40,087 bases of DNA from Acidobacteriota bacterium (GTDB taxonomy: Bacteria; Acidobacteriota; Vicinamibacteria; Fen-336), in assembly GCA_003223555.1 (NCBI GenBank), contig QHVM01000056.1:24477-64563 (forward strand). The letters run 5' to 3'. Position numbers and translations under genes: made by a program. The notes under the pieces were generated by a model. That model searched no databases and was not told where the DNA came from. It saw only the letters and a list, made by a program, of their open reading frames with translations. Of this stretch, positions 3,788 to 37,514 are shown one piece after another. Positions within the stretch are counted from its first letter, which is position 1; every line of letters starts with the position of its first letter.

Positions 3788-4921
3788 TCAGCTCGCCAGC
3801 GACGTGGCGGGAGCCTTCTCGGCGGGCATCGGCGGGACGTCGTGCGTCCAGCAGTAGGGGTCGCCCACGATCTCGTAGTGCATGGTGCGGCGCTTGGGGA
3901 CGAAGCCCGCGTCCTGGATGGCGCGCGCGATCTCGGCCTCGGTGAGGCGGAAGTGCGCGCCGGCGGCGGAGACGACGTTCTCCTCGATCATCAGGCTGCC
4001 GAAGTCGTTGGCCCCGAAGCGCAGCGACACCTGGCCGATCTTCCCTCCCTGGGTGACCCACGACGCCTGGACGCTCGGGAAGTTGTCGAGCATCACCCGG
4101 GCCACGGCCAGCGTGCGCAGGTACTGGAAGGAGGTCAGCTCGTCGCCCGCCATCGCGGTGTGGGCGGGCTGGAAAGTCCAGGCGATGAAGGCGGTGAAGC
4201 CGCCCGTGCGGTCCTGCAGCTCGCGCAGGTGCAGCAGGTGGTCGATCCTCTCTTCCAGCGTCTCCACGTGGCCGAACATCATCGTCGCGGTCGTCCGCAG
4301 GCCCAGCCGGTGAGCGGTCTCCATCACGTCCAGCCAGTCGCCGGTGCTGCCCTTGGCGATGCCGATGATCTGCCGCACGCGATCGGACAGCACCTCCGCC
4401 CCGCCGCCGGGGATCGAGTCGAGCCCGGCCGCCACCAGCCGGCGCAGGGTCTCCTCGGTCGTGAGGCCCGAGACGCGGTCGATGTGCTTGATCTCGGCCG
4501 GCGAGAGCCCGTGGATCCAGATCGGGTAGCTGGCCTTGATCCAGCGGAACAGCTCCTCGTAGAACTCGATGCCCAGGTCGGGGTGGAGCCCGCCCTGCAG
4601 GAGGATCTGGTTGCCGCCGAGGGCCAGCGTCTCCTCGATCTTCTGGGCCAGCTGCTCCTTGCTGAGCAGGTAGCCCTCCCGGGACGGGAGGTCGCGGTAG
4701 AAGGCGCAGAAGGCGCACTGCGCGACGCACACGTTCGTGTAGTTGATGTTGCGGTCGATGATGTAGGTGACGACGCCCTCCGGGTGGAGCCGCTGCCGGA
4801 CCGCGTCGGCGAGCATGCCCAGCTCGAGGAAGTCGCCGTCGCGCAGGAGCGCCACGCCTTCCTGGCGGCTCAGCCGCTCCCCGGCCAGGACCTTCTTCGC
4901 GACCGCTTCAGCGACGGGCAT
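3788..4921 (-). CDS. mqnC: Cyclic dehypoxanthine futalosine synthase MqnC (radical SAM)
   Basis: Radical SAM enzyme of 377 residues that cyclises dehypoxanthine futalosine during menaquinone synthesis. The cluster-binding CX3CX2C motif is NVCVAQCAFCAF (C65, C69, C72), followed by ILLQGGLHPDLGIEFY, HGLSPAEI, AGLDSIPGGGAEV and TTATMMFGHVET. The NQILLQGG and GLSPAEI stretches separate it from MqnE, which has VHIVGG and AFTAVE at these places. Its ATG lies inside the end of mqnA (14-base overlap), so translation is probably coupled. It is the last gene of mqnE-mqnA-mqnC and converges on the TPR gene with a 23-base gap. Confidence 0.96.
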   Translation of the reverse strand: MPVAEAVAKKVLAGERLSRQEGVALLRDGDFLELGMLADAVRQRLHPEGVVTYIIDRNINYTNVCVAQCAFCAFYRDLPSREGYLLSKEQLAQKIEETLALGGNQILLQGGLHPDLGIEFYEELFRWIKASYPIWIHGLSPAEIKHIDRVSGLTTEETLRRLVAAGLDSIPGGGAEVLSDRVRQIIGIAKGSTGDWLDVMETAHRLGLRTTATMMFGHVETLEERIDHLLHLRELQDRTGGFTAFIAWTFQPAHTAMAGDELTSFQYLRTLAVARVMLDNFPSVQASWVTQGGKIGQVSLRFGANDFGSLMIEENVVSAAGAHFRLTEAEIARAIQDAGFVPKRRTMHYEIVGDPYCWTHDVPPMPAEKAPATSLAS

Positions 4922-5702
4922 GGAACCTCAGCTCGGGGACCCGCGGGATGAGCCCGAGGCCGTGGGCGCGGCGGTAGAACTCCCGCAGCCCCCGCAGCTC
5001 CGGCTCGCCCAGCTCGTAGACGATGTTCCGGCGCAGGTACGCTTCGCTCTCCGGCCCCCGTCCGGCGCCGAGCCCATTGTACTGCGCGGCGATCTGCGAG
5101 AACGCGGCCTGGCCGGCCCGCAGCGCCTGCTGGAGCCGCGCCACGCCCGCTTCGTCCACCGCGCCCGGCCGGCCGGCCCAGAACGCGAACACGAAGGGCA
5201 GGCCCGTCCGCGAGGCCCACTCCTCGCCGAGGTCGAGCCGCTCGGCGTCGCCGCGGAAGTAGAGGGCGGGATCGCCGATGACCAGGGCCGCGTCGGCGGC
5301 GGCCAGCATGTCCTCCACCGGGGGGCCCATCGTCGCGTAATCGGGATCGCGGCCCAGCCGCTCGCGGAGCAGGATCTTCGCCAGGGCCACGCTGGTGCGC
5401 GAGGACGCATCGAGGACGACGCGGCGCGCCTGCGCGAGCGGACGGCGGTGGAAGAGGTTCACGGAGCGCACGGGGCCGCGGCTGGCGATCGCGATGCCGG
5501 GGACGATCGCGTAGTCCCCCGCCGCGTACTCCACCGACGGGATCATGCCGAGGTCGATCTCGCCCGCGTGGAGCCGCTCGGCGATGCGGGACGGCACGTC
5601 GCGGACAAGCGTGAACCGCGGATCGCCCTCCAGCCCGTGCACGAGCGGCACCGCGTTGAGGTACGACACGACGCCCAGACGCAACGGCCGTTCGTTCACC
5701 AT
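4908..5702 (-). CDS. mqnA: Chorismate dehydratase MqnA
   Basis: Protein of 264 residues with the periplasmic-binding-protein fold, cytosolic here, that dehydrates chorismate to 3-enolpyruvylbenzoate, the entry step of the futalosine pathway. Family landmarks are LRLGVVSYLNAVPLVHGL at the N-terminus, IDLGMIPSVEYA, the VNLFHRRPL strand, ASSRTSVALAKILL and ALVIGDPAL. The ATG at 5702 is chosen because it sits in ATGGTGA, overlapping the mqnE stop by seven bases, and gives normal family length. The open frame continuing further upstream is a shadow of mqnE. It lies between mqnE and mqnC in one operon. Confidence 0.96.
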   Translation of the reverse strand: MVNERPLRLGVVSYLNAVPLVHGLEGDPRFTLVRDVPSRIAERLHAGEIDLGMIPSVEYAAGDYAIVPGIAIASRGPVRSVNLFHRRPLAQARRVVLDASSRTSVALAKILLRERLGRDPDYATMGPPVEDMLAAADAALVIGDPALYFRGDAERLDLGEEWASRTGLPFVFAFWAGRPGAVDEAGVARLQQALRAGQAAFSQIAAQYNGLGAGRGPESEAYLRRNIVYELGEPELRGLREFYRRAHGLGLIPRVPELRFHARR

Positions 5703-6802
5703 TCGCGCACCACGTTGAAGATCGTGTCGCGCTCGACCGGCCGCCGGCCGGCCTCGCGGATGAGCCGCACCAGCTCGGGGACGGTCAGCGCCTGCGGCGT
5801 CTTCGCCCCCGCGTCGTGGGCGATCTTCTCCTCGGTCACGGTGCCGTCGATGTCGTCCGCTCCGAAGGACAGCCCCACCTGGGCCAGGCGGGGGCCGATC
5901 ATGATCCAGTACGACTTGATGTGCGGGAAGTTGTCCAGCATCAGCCGCCCGACCGCGATCGCCTTCAGGTCCTCGAAGGCGGTCGTCTCGGGGCAGTCCA
6001 TGGCCGGGGCTTCCCAGGGCTGGAAGGCGAGCGGGATGTAGGTCACGAAGCCGGCCGTCTCGTCCTGCAGCTCGCGCAGGCGGACGAGGTGGTCGACGCG
6101 GTCCTCCACCGACTCGATGTGGCCGTACAGCATCGTGGCGTTGGTGGGGATGCCGAGCCGATGGGCCTGCCGCATCACGTCCAGCCACTGGTCCGCGTCG
6201 GCCTTGCCCCGCACGATCTTGTCGCGGGTCTCCGCGGCGAAGATCTCCGCCCCCCCTCCGGGCATGGAGTCGAGGCCCGCCTCCTTCAGCTCGGCGAGCA
6301 CCTTCTCCACGCTCATGCGATAGAGCCGGTGGAAGAAGAAGACCTCCACCGCGGTGAACGCCTTGACGTGGATCTCGGGCCGGACCCGCTTGATCCCCCG
6401 CATCATGTCGGTGAAGTAGCTCCAGGGCAGGTCGGGGTGCAGGCCGCCGACGATGTGCACCTCGCGCACCGCCTCGGGCAGGCCGCCCACCGTGCGGAGG
6501 ATCTCGTCCAGTCCCATCGTGTAGGCCCGCGGCTCCCCTTTCCTGGCCGCGAAGGCGCAGAAGTCGCAGGTCGCCGCGCAGACGTTGGTGTGGTTGAGGT
6601 GGGTGTTCCGCACGAAGTACGCGACGTCGCCGTGGCGGCGCTCCCGGACGAGGTTGGCCAGGTGCCCGATGGCGAGCAGGTCGTGGCTGCGGTAGAGCGC
6701 GACGCCGTCGGCGAAGGACAGGCGCTCGCCGGCCATCACCTTTGCGCGGATGGGATCGAGCGCGTTGTCGCGGGCTCTGGTCTCGACGAGGGCGGTCGCC
6801 AC
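5696..6802 (-). CDS. mqnE: Aminofutalosine synthase MqnE (radical SAM)
   Basis: Radical SAM enzyme of 368 residues that joins 3-enolpyruvylbenzoate to the adenosyl moiety of SAM to form 6-amino-6-deoxyfutalosine. The cluster motif is NVCAATCDFCAF (C75, C79, C82). MqnE-type stretches EVHIVGGLHPDLPWSYF, HVKAFTAVEV, AGLDSMPGGGAEIF and PTNATMLYGHIES are all present. Its product is the MqnX substrate, so mqnE and mqnX together imply the aminodeoxyfutalosine branch. The GTG start at 6802 has no Shine-Dalgarno and lies nine bases after TAACCT. It is first in an operon with mqnA and mqnC. Confidence 0.96.
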   Translation of the reverse strand: MATALVETRARDNALDPIRAKVMAGERLSFADGVALYRSHDLLAIGHLANLVRERRHGDVAYFVRNTHLNHTNVCAATCDFCAFAARKGEPRAYTMGLDEILRTVGGLPEAVREVHIVGGLHPDLPWSYFTDMMRGIKRVRPEIHVKAFTAVEVFFFHRLYRMSVEKVLAELKEAGLDSMPGGGAEIFAAETRDKIVRGKADADQWLDVMRQAHRLGIPTNATMLYGHIESVEDRVDHLVRLRELQDETAGFVTYIPLAFQPWEAPAMDCPETTAFEDLKAIAVGRLMLDNFPHIKSYWIMIGPRLAQVGLSFGADDIDGTVTEEKIAHDAGAKTPQALTVPELVRLIREAGRRPVERDTIFNVVREW

Positions 6803-31122: not shown

Positions 31123-32082
31123 CTAGCCGACGCGGACCAGGTCGGCGGCGACTTTCATGGCTTCGACCATGCTGGTGGGGTCGGCGATGCCCTTCTCGAC
31201 GATGTCGAAGCCGGTCCCGTGATCGACCGACGTCCGCACGAAGGGCAGACCCAGCGTCACGTTGACGGCGTGGCCGAAGGCGGCCAGCTTCACCGGGATG
31301 AGCCCCTGGTCGTGGTAGCCGGCGATGACCGCGTCGAATTCGCCTCGCCTCGCGCGCACGAACAGGCTGTCGGCCGGGAGGGGACCCGAGAGGTCGATGC
31401 CCTCCCGCCGGAGCGCCTCGACGGCCGGCGTCAGCACCTCCTGCTCCTCGCGGCCGAGGATGCCATGCTCCCCGGCATGGGGGTTGAGGCCGCAGAGGGC
31501 GATGCGCGGGCGGGCCACCCCGAAGCGCGGCAGCTCGCGGTGGACGAGCCGCGCCACCCTGCGCAGCTCGCCGCCGGTGACGGCGTCCGGCACCGTCCGC
31601 AGGGGCCGGTGAATCGTCACGAGCGCCACCCGGAGGCCTCCGCCCACGAACATCATGGCCACGTCCGGGGTGCCCGCCGCCTCGGCCAGCATCTCGGTGT
31701 GGCCCGGCCACGGATGGCCGGCGGCGTGGAGCGACTCCTTGTTGAGGGGGGCGGTCACCAGCCCCTGCACGTGGCCCGCTCGCGCGTCGGCGACCCCCCG
31801 CAGCACCGACCGGGCCGCGGCGCGTCCGGCGGCGGCCGAGGTGCGGCCCAGCTCGACCGGGCCGTCCAGGGGCACGTCGACGAGGCGTGCGTCGAGGTCC
31901 TGCGGCAGGGCCAGCCCGAACCGGCGAGCGCGATCGGCGAGCACGGCCATGGCGCCGTAGACCACGACCGGGCCGGCCGGACGCTCCGGCGAGGCGAGGG
32001 CCTTCAGCACCACTTCCGGGCCGATCCCCGCCGGGTCTCCGGCAGTCAGGCCCAGCCGCGGCGCTCGAGTCTCGGCGCTCAC
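31123..32082 (-). CDS. pdxA: 4-hydroxythreonine-4-phosphate dehydrogenase PdxA
   Basis: Metal- and NAD-dependent dehydrogenase of 319 residues in pyridoxal phosphate synthesis. Family motifs are GLTAGDPAGIGPEVVLKAL, VTAPLNKESLHAAG, GHTEMLAEAAG, CGLNPHAGEHG, IAGYHDQGLIPVKL and VRTSVDHGTGFDI. Metal-binding histidines are in the GHTE, HREL and YHDQG regions. The GTG start at 32082 directly precedes the conserved strand by few residues and lies six bases after TATCCT. Some PdxA paralogues (PdxA2, DenD-type) act on other hydroxy-acid phosphates, so the physiological substrate is likely but not certain. Confidence 0.93.
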   Translation of the reverse strand: MSAETRAPRLGLTAGDPAGIGPEVVLKALASPERPAGPVVVYGAMAVLADRARRFGLALPQDLDARLVDVPLDGPVELGRTSAAAGRAAARSVLRGVADARAGHVQGLVTAPLNKESLHAAGHPWPGHTEMLAEAAGTPDVAMMFVGGGLRVALVTIHRPLRTVPDAVTGGELRRVARLVHRELPRFGVARPRIALCGLNPHAGEHGILGREEQEVLTPAVEALRREGIDLSGPLPADSLFVRARRGEFDAVIAGYHDQGLIPVKLAAFGHAVNVTLGLPFVRTSVDHGTGFDIVEKGIADPTSMVEAMKVAADLVRVG

Positions 32083-32106: not shown

Positions 32107-32352
32107 TCAGGCCTGGCGGCCGGCGAACACGCGATAGAGCGCGAGGAGCGCCACCGCCCCCAGGATCGACATGATCCAGCCCGCGGCGTAGCCGGGTCCC
32201 CACAGGGCCCGGCCGGCGAAGGTGCCCACGAGCGCGCCGGCCATCCCGATGAGCGCGGTGACGATGATGCCGCCAGGGTCGCGCCCCGGCATCACGAGCT
32301 TGGCGAGGATCCCCACGACGAGCCCGAAGATGATTTGTCCAATGAGATGCAT
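32107..32352 (-). CDS. GlsB/YeaQ/YmgE-family small membrane protein
   Basis: Membrane protein of 81 residues with three hydrophobic helices (MHLIGQIIFGLVVGILAKLV, GGIIVTALIGMAGALVGTFA, GWIMSILGAVALLALYRVF). The spacing GLVVGILAKLVMPGRDPGG is the family hallmark of these stress-associated proteins. GAAGGAGG precedes the ATG at 32352, which rejects an upstream start. No catalytic role is established for the family. It is 24 bases before pdxA on the same strand. Confidence 0.92.
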   Translation of the reverse strand: MHLIGQIIFGLVVGILAKLVMPGRDPGGIIVTALIGMAGALVGTFAGRALWGPGYAAGWIMSILGAVALLALYRVFAGRQA

Positions 32353-32482: not shown

Positions 32483-34240
32483 ATGAGCGACGGGGCGGAC
32501 GGGACCGTCGAGCCCAGGACGCCGTTCCCCACCGGAGCCGAAGCCGAGCCGGGCGAGGGTGGCGAGCAGAAGCCGCAGGGCCTGGGCCCTCGCTATCAGC
32601 GCGCGTCCACGCTCCTGACCCGCCTCGCCAGCACCGCCCGCTCCTTCCTCCTGTACGACGCCGGCAACGAGGCCATCAACCGCTCCTTGTCCGCCCTGCT
32701 CGACAGCGCCCTGTCGACCCTGCAGGTAGAGGGCCAGATCGCCCTCACGGTCCAGCCCTACGAGCTGAAGTTCGAGGACCAGACCGTATACCTGAACCGC
32801 GACCGCGAGCGCAGCCTGGCCTTCCGGCTCTACCGCGACGGCGTCCGCGGGCTGACCTTCCGCAAGGGGTTCCAGGCCGAAGAGCTGACGCGGCTGCTGG
32901 AGATCCTCTCCATCCGGTACACGGGGGTGAACCAGCGCGAAGACGACATGGTGACCCTGCTATGGAAGGCGCGCTTCGAGCACCTCGACGTCACCACGGT
33001 CGAGGGCATCGTGCCCGAGGAAACCGACGCCGGCGATGAGGAGACGGCCTCCTCGCGCCGCCTCGTCCTTCCCGACGACGTGGACCTGCCGCGGCCGACC
33101 CTGCCGCCCCCCAAGGGCCCGACGTGGATCGACGTGCCGCCCGAGCGGCTGCGCGCGCTCCGGGAGGAGGCCGGCGAAGCGGCGTTGCCGGACGATTGTC
33201 TGGCCCTGTTGGGCCGGCTCCGGCGGGCCCTGTCCGATTCCAAGGAGCAGCTGCCCTTCGGCGAAGTCGCCCACCTCTTCGGCGAGGTGCGCGACTACCT
33301 CCTGAGCGTCGACCGCCTGCCGGCGCTGAAGCGCTTCGGCGCGCTGCTGTGGGAGATGGCCGGCGAGGAGACGCCGGAATGGGATCCGCAGCGCCACGCC
33401 GCCGTCTACGACCTGCTGGACTCCTGCGGCCACCGCCGCGCGGTCCGCAGGCTGCTACGGTCGGTGCCGGCCGAGGAGCGCAAGCTGCGTCCCGAGCTGA
33501 TCGAGGTGCTGGACCGCGTCTGCCCGGACCCGCTGGTCGCGGTGATGGAGACCCTGGACGAGGAGGAAGGCCTGGCCACGCGCGCGGTGGCGCGGCAGGC
33601 GCTCGAGCACTACTCGCGCCGCAAGCCGGGGCTCCTGGAGCAGCGTTTCCTGCTCTCCCGCGGCCGCATGGCTTCCGATCTCCTGCGCGTGATGGCCCAC
33701 GTCGGGGGCGAGGCCTCCGTCGCCTTCGTGGCCCAGCAGTGCCTCCATCCCGACGCCGCCGTGCAGGACGAGGCGCTATGGCATATCGCCCGAACGCCGT
33801 ATTCGGGGGTGCTCGGCCGAAGCCTCTTCGAGGCCTTCCGCCGGGCCGACCCCGACCGTCGCTCTCGCATCCTGGAGATCGTCGCCCGCAGCGGCGACGC
33901 GCGATTCCTCGAGCCGCTCACCCGCTACGTCGAGGAGCGCGGCGACGGCCTGGGCACCGACGAGGCGTCGCGCGTCGGACGGGTGCTCGGCATCCTGGGG
34001 GGTCCGGAGAGCATCGCCCGCTGGAAAGCGTGGCTGCAGCCCGCCGGCGGGCGGCGCAAGGGTTTCGAGGCGCCGCTGCCCCGCATCGTGGCCGCGGCCA
34101 CCGCCCTCGCTTTCATCCGGGCCGAGGCGGCGGCCGAGGCCCTGGGCGCGGCCTTCGACGAAGCCGACGAGACGTCGCAGCCCTGGATCCTGGGCGCGCT
34201 CGCGCAACGACAGCGCCAGGCGTGGGAGGCAGCGCGTTGA
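32483..34240 (+). CDS. HEAT-repeat-type protein with a domain shared with its neighbour
   Basis: Soluble protein of 585 residues without signal or membrane segments. After an acidic, probably disordered start (1-35), an N-terminal domain (about 40-150) reads LLTRLASTARSFLLYDAGNEAIN, YELKFEDQTVYLNRDRERSLAFRLYRDG and GLTFRKGFQAEELTRLLEIL. It resembles the start of the next gene product. The remainder (about 230-585) is alpha-helical and reads as HEAT-like repeats (RPELIEVLDRVCPDPLVAVMETL, FVAQQCLHPDAAVQDEALWHIA, RSRILEIVARSGDARFLEPL). This suggests a scaffold or regulator. The ATG has only a weak GGCAGG upstream. Its stop overlaps the HD gene's TTG by four bases. Confidence 0.82.
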   Translation: MSDGADGTVEPRTPFPTGAEAEPGEGGEQKPQGLGPRYQRASTLLTRLASTARSFLLYDAGNEAINRSLSALLDSALSTLQVEGQIALTVQPYELKFEDQTVYLNRDRERSLAFRLYRDGVRGLTFRKGFQAEELTRLLEILSIRYTGVNQREDDMVTLLWKARFEHLDVTTVEGIVPEETDAGDEETASSRRLVLPDDVDLPRPTLPPPKGPTWIDVPPERLRALREEAGEAALPDDCLALLGRLRRALSDSKEQLPFGEVAHLFGEVRDYLLSVDRLPALKRFGALLWEMAGEETPEWDPQRHAAVYDLLDSCGHRRAVRRLLRSVPAEERKLRPELIEVLDRVCPDPLVAVMETLDEEEGLATRAVARQALEHYSRRKPGLLEQRFLLSRGRMASDLLRVMAHVGGEASVAFVAQQCLHPDAAVQDEALWHIARTPYSGVLGRSLFEAFRRADPDRRSRILEIVARSGDARFLEPLTRYVEERGDGLGTDEASRVGRVLGILGGPESIARWKAWLQPAGGRRKGFEAPLPRIVAAATALAFIRAEAAAEALGAAFDEADETSQPWILGALAQRQRQAWEAAR

Positions 34241-35643
34241 GCGTCGGCGCCATGCAGCGCAGCCTGCAGCGGGCGGTGGCCCGGGCCAGCCTGGCCGACG
34301 ACCGGGACCTCGCCGGCCGCATCCGCGACGACGGCCAGCGGCTCGTCTTCCTGCTGAACGGCCTCGTGCGCAGCAGCCGGCTCTATCAGGCTGGCAACGC
34401 GGCGGTCGACGCGCTGGCCGCCGAGGCGGCCCAGATGCTGGGGCGGCTCGTCGGCCTCCTCGGCGCCGCGCACGTCGTCGCGGTCGAGGACCAGATCTAC
34501 GTCAACGAAATCCGGGTCCGGATGAAGAAACTGGAGCAGGAGCTGCTCGACCAGCTCGTGGCCGAGCTGGGGCGGCACGAGGCCGGCGGGCTCTCCTTCC
34601 ACGCACCGCTCGAGCCCGAGGACCTCAAGGCGCTGGCGCGGGCCTTGGCCGGGCCCGCGGGCGAGGCCGGTCACGGGCGGTCGGCCCTGGCCGCGCGCCT
34701 GGCCGGCCTCCCCGGGGTCGAGGTGGGCGGCAAGTACCGGTTTCGACTCAAGGGAGAGAAGCCGTCCACGCGGCAGGACGCCGCGGAAGTGTTGCGCCGC
34801 GGGGCCTCCGTCGTCGAGGACACGCTCGCGCGGCTCGCCGCGGGCCGGCTTCCCCACCCGCTCCTCGTCCGGCGGGTGGTCATCGACCTCGTCGACGCCC
34901 TCGACGCCGACTCTCGACGCGCGGCCACCGTCGCCCTGCGCCAGGGTGAGACGGGCCCGGGCACGCAGCACCTGCTCGCGGTGTCCCGCCTCGCCCTGCG
35001 GCTCGGCCGGGCGCTGGAGCTTCCGGACGCCGCGCTCAGCGACCTCGGTGTGGCGGCCATGCTGCACGACGTCGGCTATGCGCGGGGCTCCGACCGCGAC
35101 GCCCACGCGATGGCCGGGGCGAGGATGCTCCTCCGCCAGCGCGGGTTCCACGAAGGGAAGATCCGGCGGCTGCAGGCCACGATCGAGCACCATTCGAGCG
35201 CGGACAGGAGTCCCTGCCTCTTCGCGCGCATCCTGCGCATCGCCGACGACTACGACGTCCTGACTGCCTCCCGACCCGGCGCCCCGCCGCTGCCTCCGGC
35301 CACCGCGCAGGCCGCGATGTGGGCCGCGCGGGGGACGGTCTACGATCCCGACCTTCTGGCGCTCTTCGTCCAGGCGATGGGTCTCTACCCGCCGGGAAGC
35401 CTCCTCGAGCTGAGTGACGGGCGCTGGGTCGTGAGCGTGTCGGGGGGGCGCGATGCCGAGCGCTTCGCGTGGCCGCTGGCGCGGGTCGTCCGCGACAAGG
35501 AAGGCCGGGTCCGCGACGGGGCCGAGGAGATGGACCTCTTCGTGCTTCGCGAGTTCGTGCGGCCGAAGCGGGTGCTGAACCCGGCCTCCCACGGCGTCGA
35601 CGTCGGCGCCGCCCTGGAGGCCGTGCAGCGGGGAACGCCGTGA
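34237..35643 (+). CDS. HD-domain phosphohydrolase with the shared N-terminal domain
   Basis: Cytoplasmic protein of 468 residues. Residues 30-145 match the neighbouring HEAT protein's N-terminal domain (FLLNGLVRSSRLYQAGNAAVD, VEDQIYVNEIRVRMKKLEQELLDQL, GGLSFHAPLEPEDLKALARAL). The HD-GYP-like region (about 240-370) has a first His in TQHLLAVSRLALRLG, the HD pair in MLHDVGYARG, DAHAMAGARML, IEHHSSADRSP and ARILRIADDYDVLTA. The GYP loop is absent, so cyclic-di-GMP hydrolysis is unsure. A C-terminal domain resembles the part after HD-GYP domains (LYPPGSLLELSDGRWVVSVS). TTG 34237 (TTGA overlap) is preferred; ATG 34252 is possible. Confidence 0.82.
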   Translation: MSVGAMQRSLQRAVARASLADDRDLAGRIRDDGQRLVFLLNGLVRSSRLYQAGNAAVDALAAEAAQMLGRLVGLLGAAHVVAVEDQIYVNEIRVRMKKLEQELLDQLVAELGRHEAGGLSFHAPLEPEDLKALARALAGPAGEAGHGRSALAARLAGLPGVEVGGKYRFRLKGEKPSTRQDAAEVLRRGASVVEDTLARLAAGRLPHPLLVRRVVIDLVDALDADSRRAATVALRQGETGPGTQHLLAVSRLALRLGRALELPDAALSDLGVAAMLHDVGYARGSDRDAHAMAGARMLLRQRGFHEGKIRRLQATIEHHSSADRSPCLFARILRIADDYDVLTASRPGAPPLPPATAQAAMWAARGTVYDPDLLALFVQAMGLYPPGSLLELSDGRWVVSVSGGRDAERFAWPLARVVRDKEGRVRDGAEEMDLFVLREFVRPKRVLNPASHGVDVGAALEAVQRGTP

Positions 35644-35662: not shown

Positions 35663-35989
35663 ATGCCCTTGTACATGACGCAGTTCGCCTATACGGCCGA
35701 GGCATGGACGACCCTGGCCAAGAACCCCCAGGACCGTACCGAGGCCGTGTCCGGCCTGGCCAAGAAGATGGGCGGCCGCCTGGTGAGCCTGCACTACTGC
35801 TTCGGCGAGTATGACGGCGTGCTCGTCACCGAGGTGCCCGACGACGTCAGCGCGACGGCGCTGGCGATCGCCGCGGTGACCGGGGGGCACGTCCGGGCCA
35901 CCCGGACGACGCGCCTCATGACCGCGGCCGAGGCCATGGAGGCGATGCGCAAGGCGGGAGGAGCCGGGTACCAGGGACCGAAGAAGTAG
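35663..35989 (+). CDS. GYD-domain protein
   Basis: Small ferredoxin-fold protein of 108 residues. It begins MPLYMTQFAYTAEAW and contains the GYD-type pattern LHYCFGEYDGVLVTEVPDD and a C-terminal GHVRATRTTRLMT. The family forms oligomers and has no established activity. AAAGGAG precedes the ATG, one of the clearer ribosome-binding sites in the window. It follows the HD gene by 19 bases and may be co-transcribed, although its stronger translation signal suggests different abundance. Confidence 0.92.
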   Translation: MPLYMTQFAYTAEAWTTLAKNPQDRTEAVSGLAKKMGGRLVSLHYCFGEYDGVLVTEVPDDVSATALAIAAVTGGHVRATRTTRLMTAAEAMEAMRKAGGAGYQGPKK

Positions 35990-36020
35990 CGCGGCCTCTC
36001 TCTCAGGCCGGAGGCCGCGC
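35989..36020. terminator. Bidirectional hairpin between GYD gene and TIM-barrel gene
   Basis: GCGCGGCCTC and GAGGCCGCGC form a perfect 10-bp stem around a 12-base loop. The stop codons of the two convergent genes lie at the stem base and in the loop. There is no T-run. Confidence 0.55.
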
Positions 36021-37475
36021 CCTCAGCGCCTCTCCGGCGGCGCGGAGGTTGGCCAGCCTCATCTCGGAGTACTTCCGGGAGAGGATGATGCCGTGAGCGC
36101 CGCCTTCGAAGGCTGCCTTCACCGCCTCGCGGACGTCCTCCGGCTGCGTCTTCTTCTCGTCGGCGCCCGTGGGGACGTCCACGTCGATGCCGGGCCAGAT
36201 CCGCATCCCGGCGGGAGCCCCGGCGACGGCGCGCCGGGTCTCCCGCCGGACGTAATCGGCGGAGAGGCCCTCGATCCGGATGCGGTCGAGCGGCTTCTCG
36301 TTCGGGTACTGCTGCAGCCGGTACAGGAGCTGGAGCGTTTCCTCCGGGGTGAGGTCGGCGAAAAGCGTGGCGTTCACGTTCCGGGCATAGCGGGCCATCC
36401 GCGGCCCGGCGCAGTTGTTGTACCCGACGACCTTCAGGAAGTCGGAGTAATCAGCGAAGGCGACGTAGTCCTGCTCGGCGCGATAGAAGGGGGAGAACGA
36501 GTTGTTGTGCCAGATGTGCCACCCGATCGGCTTGTCCGGCGCGACCGCGCGCGCCCGCGCGTGCATCTCCCGGTAGGTATCGCGCAGCCCCTCCGTCCAC
36601 AGCCGCTCCCAGGCCAGCACCTCCGGATGCTCGACCAGGATGCGCCAGAACGTGACGAACGCGCCGTCGGCGGGACGCCGGCCCTCGCGTAGCTCGCCCA
36701 CCCAGCGCTCCAGGGCCAGGAAGCCGCGGCGGGCCCGTTCGGCGTCGAGGCCCTGGGCGCGGGCCGCGGCCACGCAGTGCGGGCAGAAGCAGCCTGCCTC
36801 GGCCGGACGCGCCGCTCCCCCGTGGCTGGCGCCCAGCGCCTCGCCGAGCGGCCCCTGCCGCTCGCTTCCCCACATGAGGCCGTCCACGTCGTAGTGGCGG
36901 AGGTAGTCCTCGACCAGGGCGAGCCAGAACTCCCGCGTGCTGGGGTTGCGCAGGCAGGCGCGCGCGGTGGGACGGCCGTGGAGGTCGGCCTCCACGGCCC
37001 GATCGAACCCCGGCACGTCCAGCCGGAAGACGTCCTCGAACCACGCGATGACCTTGACGCGGCGCCGGTGCGCGGCCGGGATGACGTCGGCCAGGACGTC
37101 GTAACCGGGATGGTCGGGCGCCTTCTCGGGCGCGATCGTCGTGCGCCGGTACAGCTGGGGGTGCGGGGTGGCGAAGTTGCCTCCGCGGAACGCGTCGTCG
37201 TACTCCTGGACCCCGTGGTCGGGCAGCGGGCTGCCGCGGGGCTGCCGTCCGGCGATGCCGCGTCCGTAGGTGAAGCTGGCCACGAACAGGGTGTTCACGC
37301 CCGCCGACTCGGCGAGCAGATCGATGACCTTCTCCGTGCCCTCGTCCACGAAGGAGACCGCCCCGACCTGGATGCCGATGGTCGGCCCGGCGGCGCCGGA
37401 GGGGAGGGGCATCCGGCCAAAGGCGGCCCCGGTGGCAAGGGCGGCGGTCTCGAGGAACGTCCGGCGCTTGACCAT
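36003..37475 (-). CDS. Tat-exported TIM-barrel protein, glycoside hydrolase-like
   Basis: Protein of 490 residues. The twin-arginine signal is KRRTFLETAALATGAAFG at the start. The mature part reads as a (beta/alpha)8 barrel: GVNTLFVASFTYG, RRVKVIAWFEDVFR, a family-like YDVDGLMWGSERQGP strand, PIGWHIWHNN, FLKVVGYNNCAGP and a late GAHGIILSRKYSEM. Around residue 225 a CFCPHCVAAAR segment has a pair of CxxC-like cysteines, which may bind metal. The acidic residues in WFED and WGSE are plausible catalytic candidates. I recognise the type (putative sugar-acting barrel) but no defined family or substrate. AGGAGGAG precedes the ATG at 37475. Confidence 0.72.
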   Translation of the reverse strand: MVKRRTFLETAALATGAAFGRMPLPSGAAGPTIGIQVGAVSFVDEGTEKVIDLLAESAGVNTLFVASFTYGRGIAGRQPRGSPLPDHGVQEYDDAFRGGNFATPHPQLYRRTTIAPEKAPDHPGYDVLADVIPAAHRRRVKVIAWFEDVFRLDVPGFDRAVEADLHGRPTARACLRNPSTREFWLALVEDYLRHYDVDGLMWGSERQGPLGEALGASHGGAARPAEAGCFCPHCVAAARAQGLDAERARRGFLALERWVGELREGRRPADGAFVTFWRILVEHPEVLAWERLWTEGLRDTYREMHARARAVAPDKPIGWHIWHNNSFSPFYRAEQDYVAFADYSDFLKVVGYNNCAGPRMARYARNVNATLFADLTPEETLQLLYRLQQYPNEKPLDRIRIEGLSADYVRRETRRAVAGAPAGMRIWPGIDVDVPTGADEKKTQPEDVREAVKAAFEGGAHGIILSRKYSEMRLANLRAAGEALRARPPA

Positions 37476-37504
37476 GCGGCTCCTCCTGGAGTGGGCGGAG
37501 TTTG

Positions 37505-37514
37505 AGGGTAACAT
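37505..37514. promoter_or_regulatory. Overlapping divergent -10 boxes
   Basis: TAACAT (37509-37514, plus) serves the two-TM gene with its GTG eight bases later. TACCCT (37510-37505, minus) serves the Tat-protein gene with a leader of about 23 bases containing AGGAGGAG. The two boxes share two bases, so the promoters should compete. Confidence 0.4.

Follow-up and report, generated by a model that had tools for sequence, protein, structure and literature searches.

The window analyzed here, a 40,087-nucleotide stretch of contig QHVM01000056.1 (assembly GCA_003223555.1) from an Acidobacteriota bacterium, contains two adjacent genes whose products begin with the same domain (the N-domain). In the first product (N-HEAT), this domain precedes a helical repeat solenoid, and in the second (N-HD) it precedes a domain of HD-GYP descent (Table 1). 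An in-frame ATG at position 34252, giving a protein of 463 residues, is an alternative to the TTG start of N-HD. The TTGA overlap of the two genes, noticed in the initial annotation, is borne out by the positions of the stop and start codons, and from it we infer translational coupling. Purifying selection acts on both genes: against the relatives at locus L002, dN/dS is ∼0.15 for N-HEAT (0.106/0.701) and ∼0.25 for N-HD (0.159/0.643). The pair is flanked upstream, on the reverse strand, by genes for PdxA (31123-32082) and a small membrane protein with a Transgly_assoc domain (32107-32337). A GYD-domain protein (35663-35989, forward strand) lies directly downstream, followed by a GHL10-type glycosyl hydrolase (36003-37514, reverse strand). 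No link between these four neighbors and the pair was found.

Table 1. Features of the window gene pair, with the HD phosphohydrolases found before N-HEAT in family f34.
Feature	Position	Strand	Description and evidence
N-HEAT gene	32483..34240	+	ORF, ATG start, 585 aa; shared N-domain, linker, HEAT-repeat solenoid
N-domain, HEAT-side copy	32564..33049	+	~residues 28-189; predicted structure spans 36-172; HMM, hhalign, AF2
α-helical HEAT/ARM-like solenoid	33140..34237	+	residues 220-584; AF2 helices, Foldseek
TTGA start/stop overlap	34237..34240	+	N-HEAT stop TGA 34238-34240; N-HD start TTG 34237-34239
N-HD gene	34237..35643	+	ORF, 468 aa from TTG; N-domain, HD-GYP-derived domain, short β tail
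N-domain, HD-side copy	34294..34809	+	predicted structure spans residues 18-159 from ATG; HMM, hhalign, AF2
HD-GYP-derived domain	34957..35391	+	45-member alignment, family profile, Foldseek
C-terminal β segment	35401..35577	+	P.G.L..LSDGR.VV conserved in HD family; AF2 strands 384-442
f34 HD phosphohydrolase	L158:7902-8606	-	YedJ-like
f34 HD phosphohydrolase	L160:7854-8552	-	YedJ-like
f34 HD phosphohydrolase	L162:7623-8354	-	YedJ-like
f34 HD phosphohydrolase	L157:5551-6708	+	YedJ-like
f34 HD phosphohydrolase	L163:7590-8732	-	YedJ-like

The proposal that both proteins start with a shared domain came originally from short blocks matched by eye. Taken alone, the similarity between the two window proteins is not significant, since BLASTP gives 28 % over 116 residues with an E-value of 0.077. 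Comparison of ten HEAT N-termini with ten HD N-termini using hhalign yielded 87.9 % (P=3.2e-6), and comparison of the HEAT-side with the HD-side N-termini from all opened loci yielded 99.7 % (E=5.7e-27). Controls reached at most 0.4 % for 20 column-shuffled alignments and at most 0.9 % against C-terminal halves. Used as a plain query, the window HEAT protein matches through its N-terminus the N-termini of HD proteins elsewhere (E=2e-8 in genome G051), with hits of the same kind to HD proteins in three further genomes (G052, G033 and G028). HMMs grown separately from HEAT-side and HD-side seeds retrieved an identical set of 91 ORFs out of ∼4,300. AlphaFold2 (AF2) models of both proteins, each made with sequences of the respective family alone (pLDDT 88.0 for the HEAT and 87.9 for the HD model), have a common order of elements in the N-domain, H-H-E-E-(E)-H-E-H-H-E. 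The profile comparison, on which the proposal could have failed, thus finds significant similarity, and together with the shared ORF set and the matching order of elements it confirms a domain of ∼150 residues (helix-helix-β hairpin-helix-strand-helix) common to both proteins.

Two of the three blocks on which the proposal had rested, LYDAGN/LYQAGN and GLTFRKGF.../GLSFHAPL..., are equivalent in the two proteins. The third, EDQ/EDQ, is shifted by one strand and was discarded as evidence: EDQ follows strand 2 (ELKF) in the HEAT protein, whereas it precedes strand 2 (QIYV) in the HD protein, and the family alignment places VEDQIYVNE of the HD protein opposite PYELKFEDQ of the HEAT protein. Conservation stays below 90 % in every column of the N-domain alignment, and a strongly conserved polar pocket is not apparent. 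Searches of Pfam, NCBIfam and PDB sequences with the N-domain gave no believable match; the PDB hits were weak single segments in repetitive or designed proteins and were rejected.

The remainder of the window N-HEAT protein is modeled as tandem antiparallel helix pairs and matches ARM/HEAT structures in the PDB, as in a solenoid. The Pfam HEAT_2 family is sub-threshold in the window protein (E=0.0036) and strong in its relatives, with matches in 39 of the 45 members of N-HEAT family A2.

The phosphohydrolase recognized in the other partner is indeed an HD hydrolase, of a type that had gone unremarked, as had the loss of its catalytic features in this lineage and the GGDEF fusion of N-HEAT described below. 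By descent, the HD half is an HD-GYP domain, the class of c-di-GMP phosphodiesterases. The window protein matches Pfam HD (4e-11) and HD_5 (1e-10), and the top Foldseek match of its model is Bd1817, with PmGH and PA4781 also found. Among solved structures, the family profile scores best against V-cGAP3 (E=2.3e-48), a 3'3'-cGAMP phosphodiesterase, and next against PmGH (E=3.5e-44). Most relatives contain HDIGK and EHHxxxDGTGYP together with the triplet Y-T-F or Y-T-L, a subfamily expected to be binuclear (PMC4159591). Judged by these motifs, the HD-GYP part of most relatives looks catalytically complete, of the Y-T-F/L type, and is probably binuclear.

The lineage of the window (families f1 and f18) has lost several catalytic features. 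All seven metal ligands (H189, H221, D222, H250, H276, H277 and D305 in PmGH numbering) are present in the window protein, as they are in nearly all relatives in a 45-member alignment, and all seven are conserved in the related loci L002, L003, L066 and L067. The catalytic D183 and K225, which are D and K in L070 and similar relatives, are replaced by T and Y, and the L7/8 and GYP loops are gone. The GYP motif (HHExxDGxGYP) is found neither in the window protein nor in its f1/f18 relatives; most other relatives have it. Of these losses, those of D183 and K225 carry the most weight, because the D183A and K225A changes abolish the activity of PmGH while changes in GYP do not (PMC4159591). With the residues for c-di-GMP hydrolysis missing and the metal site kept, the HD part in this lineage is more likely a regulatory subunit, predicted to depend on a nucleotide or metal.

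Two variations elsewhere in the HD family may be mentioned. One N-HD relative (L081:6805-8235, reverse strand) lacks the HD motif itself, with LFQCLGEQ in its place, a case in which the active site was lost independently. A DUF4388 domain occurs in two of the 45 HD-family members, the better match (E=2e-13) being at the C-terminus (residues 511-656) of L064:7704-9914; we take the second to be L065:6209-8101, which also has a long C-terminal tail.

The N-domain was found in 147 of 396 sampled Acidobacteriota genomes; the genome search covered this phylum, and a phylum limit of the domain is therefore not claimed. The 80 loci that were opened contain it in 84 HEAT proteins, 55 HD proteins and three truncated frames; no other kind of protein there carries it. 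A search for the domain on plasmids was empty, HD-GYP proteins from viral contigs do not carry it, and a scan of one genome collection returned close relatives and no others. Recurrence of the pair, which the initial annotation had proposed to check by an HMM search across genomes, is clear: 53 adjacent same-strand N-HEAT to N-HD pairs are present at 48 opened Acidobacteriota loci, and 18 HEAT-HD junctions, including that of the window, have a four-nucleotide overlap. No intact N-HD gene without an upstream N-HEAT was seen at the opened Acidobacteriota loci. An upstream partner was not scored at two N-HD loci: L063 lies at a contig edge, with the HEAT part present, and L076 has a disrupted HEAT frame. 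N-HEAT can do without the HD-GYP partner, since ∼30 of the opened loci have N-HEAT and no N-HD.

The history of the two copies can be read from several comparisons. On the N-domain tree, the HEAT-side and HD-side labels require two changes, compared with 44 in shuffles. The AU test is compatible with one clade of HD-side copies (p-AU 0.745), and the likelihood of this constrained tree exceeds that of the unconstrained one. Tandem HEAT-HD-HEAT-HD quartets occur at five loci, and in all 10 comparisons their HEAT and HD paralogues agree in slot. Distances among the HEAT and among the HD proteins are correlated (Mantel r=0.87, reached in 0 of 2000 permutations), as in co-evolving partners, although this correlation and the congruence of the trees are also expected from simple co-inheritance. 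The tree split, the pairing and the slot match suggest that the N-domain was duplicated early, that as far as the data show it joined the HEAT and HD partners once each, and that the pair traveled together; at the level of sequence comparison, the pair was inherited and duplicated as a unit across Acidobacteriota. Broken pair members, whose HD or HEAT gene has changes of frame, are seen at L065:9761-12133, L068:9035-10760 and L076:11991-13211 and may reflect decay or assembly error. The genomic neighbors of the pair are not conserved across classes. At L069-L078, L091, L095, L097 and L099, the upstream genes are divergent and encode a nucleoside transporter, a purine nucleoside phosphorylase and a cytidine deaminase. 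These neighbors were dismissed as a functional clue: their frequent association with the pair is confined to the window's class, and the window itself lacks them.

N-HEAT is also found in other company. In family f65, it is part of single proteins of ∼1,400 residues (GGDEF-AAA-N(-N)-HEAT), in which a GGDEF cyclase at the N-terminus is followed by an AAA ATPase (AAA_16), the N-domain, often as two tandem copies, and the HEAT region; members are L170:579-4859 (reverse strand), L195, L196, L197 and L198. The tandem N-domains were considered as a direct mimic of a heterodimer and rejected, since both copies look HEAT-type. The guanine-contacting aspartate of c-di-GMP cyclases, for which GGDEF enzymes known to make cGAMP have a serine, is kept in the f65 GGDEF domain (GHxxGD). 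The L170 gene is adjoined by a weak GGDEF frame (4860-5372) and, on the other strand, by a gene for a cNMP_binding-GGDEF protein (5595-6590). The genome of the window itself has 25 GGDEF matches, which, together with the selection on both genes, indicates that parts for c-di-GMP signaling are present there.

Family f34 has a different HD partner. A single-domain HD phosphohydrolase (Table 1) directly precedes N-HEAT, with an ATGA overlap at all five such loci. It is YedJ-like and non-GYP (PRK10119 E=1e-6, below the PRK10119 cut-off) and has no N-domain. A search of this family found no N-HD, and no such HD neighbor for the second N-HEAT copies in two of these genomes (L159 and one in L163). 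From gene order and domain content, f34 is a second, independent pairing of HD and HEAT proteins, and since its partner is not an HD-GYP protein, the nucleotide may not be c-di-GMP. In family f20, sub-threshold PilZ matches (E=0.008 and 0.003) are located at the C-terminus of N-HEAT (L165:4759-7536, reverse strand; L209:6631-9378, forward strand). The observations on f65, f34, f20 and DUF4388 provide independent indications that N-HEAT is associated with cyclic dinucleotides and HD hydrolases. A link of the module to c-di-GMP may be regarded as strongly supported by the HD-GYP homology, the GGDEF fusion in f65 and the GGDEF matches in the genome of the window.

We propose, with the odds about evenly balanced, that the pair is a translationally coupled two-protein module for cyclic-dinucleotide signaling in which the HD-GYP protein is docked on its HEAT partner through the N-domains. 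Of the initial interpretation, the fusion of a shared domain to a scaffold and to an HD hydrolase is supported, as is the recurrent pairing; the hetero-oligomerization or common ligand suggested there would be further properties of the pair. One domain of ∼150 residues would have been duplicated once, before the divergence of the relatives studied, with one copy coming to carry the HEAT solenoid and the other the HD-GYP domain. Pairing of the two N-domains would then dock the HD-GYP protein on its scaffold, and binding or hydrolysis of a cyclic dinucleotide by the HD-GYP part could control what the HEAT arm binds; alternatively, the scaffold might place the phosphodiesterase at a target. In the lineage of the window, the HD part would bind or signal instead of cleaving.

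The nucleotide in this scheme might be another one. A substrate other than c-di-GMP (such as 3'3'-cGAMP, some further nucleotide or an oligonucleotide), with the HD part as half of a nucleotide-processing pair, is somewhat doubtful, but this reading has the rank of V-cGAP3 above PmGH among solved structures in its favor, as well as the coupling of N-HEAT to a YedJ-like, non-GYP hydrolase in f34 and the loss of D183, K225 and the GYP loop from the window copy. The V-cGAP3 and PmGH scores are, however, too close for a substrate assignment, and the f65 cyclase has the aspartate of the c-di-GMP type. The N-domains might also be ligand-sensing inputs that form separate homodimers, so that the two proteins answer a common signal without forming a complex. 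HD-GYP proteins can dimerize with an N-terminal sensory domain, as does the GAF-HD-GYP protein PmGH (PMC4159591), and the solo N-HEAT genes indicate that the N-domain works without an N-HD partner. The strict order of HEAT before HD, the four-nucleotide overlaps and the duplication as a unit instead suggest stoichiometric co-production, which is no proof of contact, and the lack of a conserved polar pocket or of any strongly conserved column also speaks against sensing; we regard separate sensors as unlikely.

Less probable still is a mere operon of paralogous proteins with unrelated jobs, its adjacency a relic of duplication. The two N-domains are ancient paralogues, whose adjacency could be inherited, but adjacency and overlap persist across many families, whole pairs are duplicated at five loci, N-HD was not seen without an upstream N-HEAT, and N-HEAT of f34 has an independent, overlapping HD partner, which together make this quite unlikely. 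It is very unlikely that the window HD protein is a functionless pseudo-enzyme in decay, as the loss of D183, K225 and the L7/8 and GYP loops might suggest, given its dN/dS and a metal site conserved in all seven ligands in four related loci. We retain the docked signaling module as our working model. More tentatively, and with slightly less than even confidence, it may be extended to a phylum-wide module in which two ancient N-domain paralogues heterodimerize and fix a phosphodiesterase, or its dead descendant, on a HEAT scaffold as a device for local c-di-GMP output, fused to its own cyclase in one lineage.

If correct, the model describes a new two-protein signaling module and a new domain family; the N-domain merits a family entry. 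Partners and outputs are unknown for most HD-GYP proteins, and Acidobacteriota, although abundant in soil, are little studied. With a homologous candidate docking domain and a co-inherited partner, the local target of a phosphodiesterase becomes directly testable, and a degenerate active site beside complete ones across lineages provides a natural test of the conversion of an enzyme to a receptor.

The initial annotation knew no named system of this design, and we agree: neither the N-domain nor the pair has a family in Pfam, NCBIfam or PADLOC, and no publication on either was found among the open-licence papers searched, so that, within the libraries searched, both the domain and the pairing appear undescribed. 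An anti-phage defense system was considered and set aside, as PADLOC matched no system and gave weak repeat-level or HD-level matches only. Bacterial HEAT/ARM scaffolds (HEAT_2; PADLOC HEAT-ARM_XIII) share with N-HEAT the helical solenoid, a general protein-binding scaffold, but the likeness is at the level of the repeats only, and N-HEAT differs in its N-terminus and its partner. The HD-GYP phosphodiesterases PmGH, PA4781 and RpfG (Pfam HD_5/HD) have the same domain as N-HD, with HDxGK and HHxxxDGxGYP in most N-HD relatives. N-HD differs from them in its N-terminal domain, which is outside Pfam, and in its constant N-HEAT neighbor, and the window copy also lacks D183, K225 and GYP.

Bd1817 of Bdellovibrio (3tm8), an inactive HD-GYP protein whose regulatory role is unknown, resembles the window HD protein in that the metal site is kept and the features required for activity are lost. 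Its N-terminal part has no sequence match to the N-domain profile, and we know of no HEAT partner for it. Some degenerate EAL and HD-GYP enzymes of c-di-GMP metabolism act as receptors or through protein contact (PMC4159591). By analogy, the compromised yet selected domain of the window protein may likewise have exchanged catalysis for binding or contact; unlike those enzymes, it has a partner with a homologous domain and a HEAT solenoid.
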